Of a DNA stretch of 64,000 bases, positions 7,156 to 7,970 are shown piece by piece. The notes under the pieces are model-generated. The model made no database searches, had not been told where the DNA came from, and saw only the letters and a program-made list of their open reading frames with translations. Position numbers and translations under genes: made by a program. The stretch comes from Promethearchaeota archaeon (GTDB lineage: Archaea > Asgardarchaeota > Lokiarchaeia > Sigynarchaeales > SOKP01). How positions within the stretch are numbered: the first letter of the stretch is position 1; every line of letters starts with the position of its first letter. Location: NCBI GenBank assembly GCA_019058515.1, contig JAHPYY010000173.1, forward strand, positions 62,001 to 126,000, in the 5' to 3' direction.

Positions 7156-7280
7156 TTTTTAAAAAGCTAAGTTGGGTTATGCTTTATTATGCTCTTTGTT
7201 AGAACCAAATTACTATTTCTGTCTTTTTATTGATCGATTTATAAAATATTTTGATAGCTTTTTAATTTGATAGACATATA

Positions 7281-7805
7281 ATGCGAATAATGACTGAAGA
7301 AGATACGCCTAGACCCAGCGGAATTGATATTGGATCAAGAGCTCCAGATTTTGATACAGTAGATATAGACGGAAACCGCATAAATCTTGACGATATGTTA
7401 AGAGAATACAACGGTGTTCTTATTGATTTTTTCAGAGGAAATTGGTGACATCATTGAAAAAAGCATTTATTGGTACTTACCAAAACTCTAAGCGAATTTA
7501 CTAAAAGAAAAGTGAAACTAATTTCTATAGCAGCGGATAGCGAAAGATTGTTGAGAAATTTTAAAGAAGAAAACGGATTTTCAGTAAATATTGTGGCAGA
7601 TAGATTGACTAAAATAATCAAACAGTACGGTGTGTATTGGTACGCTAAAGGTGGGGGTGGTACAATGAAGGTAAAACAAGCGTTCCCCAGTACATTTATA
7701 ATAAACAAAAACAAGCTGATTGTCTGGAAATACATTGGTCAAGATAAGACCGACAGACCTTCTATGGAAAAATTACTGAGTGTTATAGATGATAAAATTA
7801 AATGA
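7281..7805 (+). CDS. Peroxiredoxin-like selenoprotein with UxxU redox motif (two in-frame TGA codons)
   Basis: Thioredoxin-fold, AhpC/TSA-type peroxiredoxin-like protein of 174 residues that likely reduces peroxides or disulfides. Translation from the ATG at 7281 gives the family N-terminus (GSRAPDFDTVDIDGN, LIDFFRGNW). It then meets TGA at 7446 and TGA at 7455, exactly where relatives have the CxxC of RGxWCPxC, and continues in the same frame (KKHLLVLTKTLSEF, ISIAADS, QAFPSTFIINK) to a TGA stop at 7803. Reading both internal TGA codons as selenocysteine gives the motif U56-H-H-U59. Nothing else in the frame is broken, and a SECIS-like hairpin lies just after the stop. Multi-Sec proteins are established for Lokiarchaeota. 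A standard gene caller would report only the part after the second TGA, from a TTG at 7470. Confidence 0.85.
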
Positions 7806-7816
7806 GTCCTATTAGA

Positions 7817-7852
7817 ATGAAGCAAGCATGAAAATAGTAGATGCTTGAAGAC
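7817..7852 (+). ncRNA. SECIS-like element in the 3' UTR of the selenoprotein gene
   Basis: Starting 11 bases after the stop codon, ATGAAG is followed by the perfect seven-base-pair stem CAAGCAT (7823-7829) / ATGCTTG (7841-7847). The stem encloses an 11-base loop beginning GAAAA and is closed by AAGA. The lower part can form the tandem G.A pairs of a eukaryote-like SECIS core (ATGA 5', GA 3'), and the loop carries the unpaired adenines expected at the apex. A possible basal helix pairs TCCTA (7807-7811) with TAGGA (7869-7873). Lokiarchaeal selenoprotein genes are known to use SECIS elements resembling the eukaryotic type. The fold was worked out by eye. Confidence 0.75.
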
Positions 7853-7970
7853 GACCCATGTAAGGGTTTAGGATATATACATCGTTTTTTTTTCAACATA
7901 TTCATAAGTTTGTACTATTAAGATATTTTACATTATTTAATCTCATTAAATTAATCATACGATTCACAAA

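Follow-up and report, generated by a model that had tools for sequence, protein, structure and literature searches.

A very likely UxxU peroxiredoxin-like selenoprotein gene followed by a putative three-way-junction SECIS element in a very probably Lokiarchaeal contig

The window analyzed here, a stretch of 64,000 nucleotides of genomic DNA, carries a peroxiredoxin-like (Prx-like) gene of the AhpC/TSA fold that contains two in-frame TGA codons and is followed by a structured RNA element (Table 1). When TGA is taken as a residue, the encoded protein scores 84.5 bits against the AhpC-TSA family (Pfam PF00578), for which the cut-off is 26. In the frame opened by the ATG at 7281, both codons lie where the initial annotation had located them and generate the active-site motif WUHHU, a UxxU arrangement formed by U56 and U59. 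The prediction that automated annotation would split this gene was borne out by the protein database, which holds a 97-aa 3′ piece (99% identical; P0029). Translation is more likely to begin at the second ATG (7290; MTEEDTPRP) than at the first, because homologues begin likewise (MxxEEPPRP), and, judging from where homologues end, the TGA at the end of the gene presumably terminates translation. The T run downstream of the RNA element probably marks the end of the transcript.

Table 1. Features of the Prx-like locus in the window and positions of further selenoprotein candidates in the loci examined.
Feature	Position	Strand	Remarks
TATA-box-like sequence TTTATAAAATA	7238..7248	+	about 40-50 nt 5′ of start codon; by eye
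Prx-like (AhpC/TSA fold) selenoprotein gene	7281..7805	+	174 residues counted from ATG 7281
TGA, predicted Sec codon U56	7446..7448	+	in frame; TGA in 61/61 homologous genes
TGA, predicted Sec codon U59	7455..7457	+	TGA 21, TGT 22, TGC 18 of 61
Terminating TGA (predicted)	7803..7805	+	sits where homologues end
Putative three-way-junction SECIS element	7806..7874	+	model R1, fold, covariation
Lower stem, 5′ strand	7806..7811	+	pairs with 7869-7874; fold and helix 1 covariation
Quartet core 5′ half, AUGA	7817..7820	+	starts 11 bases past stop
Second in-frame TGA	7818..7820	+	inside SECIS core, behind first stop
Upper SECIS hairpin	7823..7847	+	7 bp (7823-7829 with 7841-7847), 11-nt A-rich loop GAAAATAGTAG
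Quartet core 3′ half, GA	7850..7851	+	
Side hairpin GACCC/GGGTT, third junction arm	7853..7868	+	fold; helix 3 covariation
Nine-T run	7885..7893	+	directly 3′ of SECIS; seen in sequence
Zinc-ribbon candidate, Sec form	L195-L215, L217, L218, middle of each locus		three-way SECIS downstream
Zinc-ribbon candidate, Cys form	L017:1015-1128, L019:7813-7926		same genes as in L220, L223
Hydrophobic-stretch candidates	L048, L051, L052, L056, L143, L151, L155, L156, L159, L160, L169, L174, L175, L178, L183, L188, L190		before SECIS match

A protein search returned 40 matches, one of which is the window gene's own 3′ piece. At the DNA level, a scan of genome contigs recovered 33 loci, each with Lokiarchaeota or Lokiarchaeia in its title, and in the 37 genes of this first set (the 33 loci and the window) codon 56 is TGA throughout and codon 59 specifies Cys in 29 genes and is TGA in 8. 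A search of the phylum matched 58 of 227 genomes at an E-value of 1e-10 or better, with TGA inside all 60 matches at 1.8e-28 or better and no internal stop in the matches between 1.8e-14 and 1e-10. The 12 weak matches that were fetched have T/SxxC (11) or CxxC (1) and are therefore regarded as other AhpC/TSA proteins. The final set, from which L104 was left out as a duplicate of L032, comprises 61 distinct genes including that of the window. Codon 56 is TGA in every one of them and TGG in none, and codon 59 is TGA in 21, Cys in 40 and nothing else. No relative was found in the phage collection or in the viral-contig scan. Two of the 61 genes (L029 and L118) contain one extra TAA or TAG within the matched stretch. 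An apparent one-base frameshift lies near position 1417 of L118, the 3′ part of which continues in another frame, probably as a result of MAG error or decay.

The codon comparisons show both TGA positions to be conserved Sec-codon or Cys-codon sites within a family of AhpC/TSA fold, contrary to the outcome, named beforehand as one that would count against a selenoprotein, of homologues in which neither position is a conserved Cys or Sec. The initial annotation had set the two codons on the cysteines of a family CxxC motif; this motif applies to distant fold relatives, whereas every homologue has UxxC or UxxU and none has CxxC. A protein tree of all 61 sequences, for which the two Sec columns were masked, requires at least seven changes of state at position 59, which on this evidence has switched repeatedly between Cys and Sec. 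The window gene pairs with a UxxC gene (L005), away from the other UxxU genes, on a long branch and with a support of 88/91 that is not starred. With a SECIS element in place, a change from Cys to Sec at 59 would need just TGY to TGA.

Downstream of the gene, model R1 matches the window at 7803-7874 with 59.3 bits (E 3.7e-13), the sole match at an E-value of 1 or better, the window element being one of the 15 training rows of this model. The hairpin of the initial annotation is present, with seven perfect pairs, an A-rich loop and AUGA 11 bases past the stop, but it appears to form only one arm of a three-way junction. Together with the AUGA/GA quartet and apical adenines, the 7 bp stem, the 11-nt loop and the core 11 nt after the stop agree with the layout given for eSECIS-like elements, namely a GA_[G/A]A core, an upper stem of 7-15 bp, a loop of 8-20 nt and a location near the 3′ end (PMC11227280). 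Folding of positions 7800-7900 (101 nt) yields the upper hairpin, the lower stem and a second hairpin with a z-score of -1.68, and 13 of 200 shuffles fold equally well; as the single-sequence fold is only mildly better than shuffles, the proof rests on conservation.

Model matches were paired by hand with gene ends from their coordinates, and accompany 56 of the 61 genes (15 of them training rows), comprising 37/37 gene ends of the first set and 19/24 of the further Prx genes. No match was detected for the divergent L119, L121 and L122, all of which have TGA, or for L117 and L120, which run into the end of the contig as fetched. Comparison across these gene ends shows a conserved structured RNA just after the stop. 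A GAATGA-like core lies after or over the stop codon in all 37 first-set genes, at a distance of 0-12 nt in 35 and of 56 nt in L032. The L025 core reads AGGA instead of AUGA, and in L014 the core overlaps the stop and its own UGA is the stop codon, an overlap already reported for Lokiarchaeia (PMC11227280). In L016, L024, L027, L030 and others, the lower SECIS stem lies within the last codons (AATCCCAA, residues NP). Since the lower stem overlaps these codons where the core directly follows the stop, the RNA may influence which residues the protein has at its C-terminus.

Support for the third arm comes from covariation. In a plain MAFFT alignment of 37 rows, 7 of the 8 upper-stem pairs present changes on both sides; automatic folding of this alignment returned the upper hairpin only, and the position of the side arm was shifted among subgroups. 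Because of this shift, the model was built from 15 sequences of the same layout and tested on others. On the MAFFT alignment of these 15 sequences, the three-stem structure, which we drew from the same sequences, beats every slide and nearly all shuffles: 27 of 500 shuffles had as many further pair types as observed, and for each of the other four measures 0 or 1 of 500 reached the observed value. Pair counts in two larger sets lean towards the model because the alignments were fitted to it. Of the five side-helix pairs, three present both-side changes in the 27 rows from the second search, a set made up of 20 Prx elements (L104, a duplicate, among them), 4 weak matches and 3 elements of zinc-ribbon genes, and all five do so in 78 distinct elements, most of them not from Prx genes, in an alignment of 79 rows that includes one Prx gene, L041. 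In the latter, 88.8% of side-arm cells are paired, and the whole structure reaches 90.7%, compared to 63.3% when shuffled and at most 50.6% when slid. Model-free parsing, which succeeded for 54 of the 61 gene ends and failed for 7, yielded a mean side-hairpin score of 6.33 versus 4.55 for shuffled sequences (highest of 200 shuffle means, 5.23), with L101 misplaced yet counted in the means. Covariation is thus seen in all three helices, also in sequences outside model training, and indicates that the SECIS element appears to form a three-way junction, the third arm of which is a hairpin on the 3′ side.

The third arm appears to be new with respect to the literature consulted, because neither the 2022 review nor the published Asgard model describes such an arm and a literature search returned none, although Mariotti 2016 or supplements may have it. 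The review (PMC9499178), citing Mariotti 2016, attributes one apical loop to Lokiarchaeal SECIS elements and two to most archaeal ones, and the Asgard model (PMC11227280) consists of a core, an upper stem, an apical loop, the surrounding internal loop and a lower stem. The words hairpin, three-way and side are absent from the main text of the latter, and in the literature on SECIS, three-way junctions and archaea the phrase was found only in a reference on another RNA.

The T run that directly follows the element, and the position of the arm where the transcript likely ends, would also suit a different role, in which the lower stem and side hairpin serve 3′-end formation or mRNA stability and the SECIS element consists of the AUGA/GA hairpin only. 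We consider this unlikely, given that in the Prx genes, and likewise in other gene families, arm and core hairpin covary as a single unit, and that the 3′ strand of the arm directly precedes the lower-stem strand pairing upstream of the core. A SECIS element that includes all three arms is the reading adopted here.

The Lokiarchaeal genomes that carry the Prx-like gene were assessed for Sec machinery. SepSecS was found over the cut-off in 31 of these 32 genomes and SelD in 30, with one TGA in each of the listed cut-off matches of SelD. Matches to tRNA-Sec exceed the Rfam cut-off in 8 of the 32 genomes and reach 29 at looser E-values, a count to which we give no evidential weight, since at loose E-values every one of the 14 control genomes matches as well (5 over the cut-off). 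The window itself is very probably Lokiarchaeal, since its GatB, 79-81% identical over near full length to GatB of Lokiarchaeal MAGs, matches best in genomes of Lokiarchaeal loci (those behind L027, L024, L020, L030 and L028, and a few others). An actin-like gene recognized by eye on the minus strand (window:51253-52392; GSSIFKLGWAG) fits an Asgard source.

Position 56 is printed as W in all 32 database homologues that cover it, as it would be if TGA encoded tryptophan in this lineage (a code-4-like reading) and the motif were WWxxC or WWxxW. The DNA of related loci has TGA at this position, and the W entries are for this reason read as most likely, and most simply, TGA called under a TGA=Trp code. 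The complete lack of TGG at 56 and the restriction of 59 to TGA or Cys codons, an alternation that argues against tryptophan, join with the structured RNA 3′ of the gene, the SepSecS and SelD of its relatives and the coincidence of the window's third TGA with homologue ends in making recoding to tryptophan very improbable. Even more remote is a pseudogene, a CxxC gene with two nonsense mutations, for although TGC or TGT becomes TGA by one base and the data are mostly from MAGs, TGA recurs at 56 in all 61 genes across many genomes, the frame is open downstream, the downstream half is conserved at the protein level and a covarying structured RNA follows the gene.

We therefore regard it as highly likely that the gene encodes a thioredoxin-fold, Prx-like redox enzyme in which both active-site residues are Sec, recoded via a 3′ UTR SECIS element. 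Comparison with homologues in this way supports the original proposal of a Prx-like Asgard selenoprotein with UxxU and a eukaryote-like SECIS element in its 3′ UTR. An AlphaFold2 model computed with Cys at both sites reached a pLDDT of 89.6 and presents a helix that begins at 57, right after U56. Its closest solved folds are archaeal Bcp/PrxQ proteins (3hjp, 2ywn and 2cx3), with ResA (4nmu) at rank 5. At the head of this long helix, UxxU should act like a CxxC oxidoreductase site, and a peroxide or disulphide substrate is suggested by the fold only. Bcp/PrxQ and ResA share the fold of the window protein, and Bcp-type relatives align TxxC onto UxxU, placing Thr at U56 and Cys, the peroxidatic residue, at U59. 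Classical Bcp/PrxQ membership was rejected, the TxxC site being absent and codon 56 invariably TGA. SelL, a eukaryotic protein defined by UxxU, is alike in carrying this motif within a thioredoxin/Prx-like fold; membership was rejected here too, with 55.6 bits against the NCBIfam SelL-related model versus a cut-off of 120. SelL has itself been named a Prx-like protein (PMC2398784).

In the mechanism that we propose, the three-way-junction SECIS element would present its AUGA/GA core and A-rich loop to a putative SECIS-binding factor and a Sec elongation factor, by which Sec-tRNA would be delivered to both UGA codons, situated about 360 nt 5′ of the element. With just 11 nt between it and the core, the terminating UGA would lie too near for recoding, so that translation stops, and the in-frame UGA inside the core may act as a back-up stop. 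The protein would then cycle between diselenol and diselenide, or a selenenyl-sulphide in its UxxC relatives, reducing peroxides or disulphides.

The gene is a new member of an already published selenoprotein family. Asgard Prx-like selenoproteins with eukaryote-like SECIS elements have been described, with the gene name prxL, in a study according to which an earlier Lokiarchaeia paper, cited there as reference 32, was the first to report them (PMC11227280). The window gene shares with prxL the fold family, Sec, and a type I eSECIS-like element that lies close to the end of the gene and has an AUGA_GA core and an A-rich loop; it differs in its UxxU motif and in the third arm, the published SECIS model having one upper stem and an apical loop (PMC11227280). 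A word search of the main text of that study did not find UxxU, which its supplements or Mariotti 2016 may show. The earlier Lokiarchaeia paper is, we assume, Mariotti 2016. The same domain and motif, with one or two Sec, characterize the Prx-like thiol:disulfide oxidoreductase (PF00578, UxxC/UxxU), whose listing covers prokaryotes generally (PMC9312934, PMC13188914). Other Asgard lineages also harbor peroxiredoxin-family selenoproteins with predicted SECIS elements (PMC9723677, PMC11291895), but in the relevant passages of PMC11291895 these are CXXU or UXXC and UxxU goes unmentioned, in contrast with the window protein. Bacterial SECIS elements are located within the coding region (PMC9499178). 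Eukaryotic elements resemble that of the window in their AUGA/GA core, apical adenines and 3′ UTR location (features per PMC11227280), yet have two stems and one apical loop, whereas the window element adds a side hairpin and in an Rfam scan of the window RNA matched no SECIS family.

When 32 genomes were scanned with the model, 32 matches, spread over 6 genomes, were obtained at E 1 and 111 matches, spread over 26 genomes, at E 0.001; 60 of the 74 non-Prx matches at this threshold were fetched and their upstream ORFs read. By eye and from known motifs, we take 21 of these ORFs to be MvhD/VhuD, 3 HdrA-like and 1 SelD, and the rest comprise 11 zinc-ribbon proteins, 13 proteins with a single hydrophobic helix and a TGA close to the C-terminus, and 11 unclear cases. 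The best of the undescribed-looking selenoproteins is a candidate zinc-ribbon protein of 37 residues (CxxC..CxxC) with a predicted C-terminal Sec, its TGA being followed at once by TAA or TAG. One such protein, searched against the 227 genomes of the phylum, matched 30 times in 29 of them: 23 end in [FY]K-TGA and then TAA/TAG, 2 end in TGT, and 5 remote matches (L219, L221 and L224 among them) present neither ending. A SECIS element lies 3′ of 23/23 TGA-ending genes, and none belonging to the 2 Cys or 5 remote genes was found with the model at E 0.1, the elements in L220, L222 and L223 belonging to the Prx gene. Because the Sec/Cys exchange tracks the presence of the element, the zinc-ribbon selenoprotein is strongly supported. 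Both Cys-form genes immediately precede the Prx gene, and in L032, L101 and L112 a Sec-form gene is located on its 5′ side. The distance from TGA to core is 40-48 nt in 11/11 measured genes, which is short compared to the 70-1,500 nt that a review states (PMC9499178). Literature searches combining selenoprotein and zinc ribbon with archaea or Asgard found nothing, and the survey of Huang et al. started from known families.

A second group of small proteins consists of one hydrophobic stretch with TGA near the C-terminus (GGGUPSTC, GGUAC, CFUH), followed by a three-way SECIS element (Table 1). Three of them were tested and had no Pfam match at the cut-off. Their layout recalls that of eukaryotic SelK/SelS, the likeness being one of layout. 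In L186, L191 and L192, the SECIS match is preceded by similar ORFs, each 300 residues or longer, in which no Sec codon was placed.

The three-way-junction element and the candidates derived from the scan point beyond the published Asgard Prx-like selenoproteins. Asgard SECIS elements have been argued to be a bridge to eukaryotes, and the reports at hand name no SECIS-binding protein, and no SBP2, in archaea; a Lokiarchaeal vhuU SECIS element was not functional in Methanococcus maripaludis (PMC11881835). A tentative possibility is that the extra arm docks the missing archaeal SECIS-binding factor and that a hidden selenoproteome includes a selenium-to-selenium electron relay, in which the zinc-ribbon Sec protein would pass electrons to or from the UxxU/UxxC Prx-like enzyme. 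The covarying third arm suggests a specific site at which a factor might bind and sharpens the model used for searches, which bears on the placement of Sec in archaea and early eukaryotes, and a family-blind SECIS search points to selenoproteins that would be missed by surveys that start from known families.

Tandem Prx pairs about 700-740 bp apart occur in L020, L021 and L028, the first gene being UxxC and the second UxxU, with a SECIS element for each. As a single case, the minus-strand Prx gene of L112 (gene end at reverse-complement position 2326) has three in-frame TGA codons, the third located 11 residues before UxxU (NYSULLIDFF), and the nearby zinc-ribbon gene also has two TGA.
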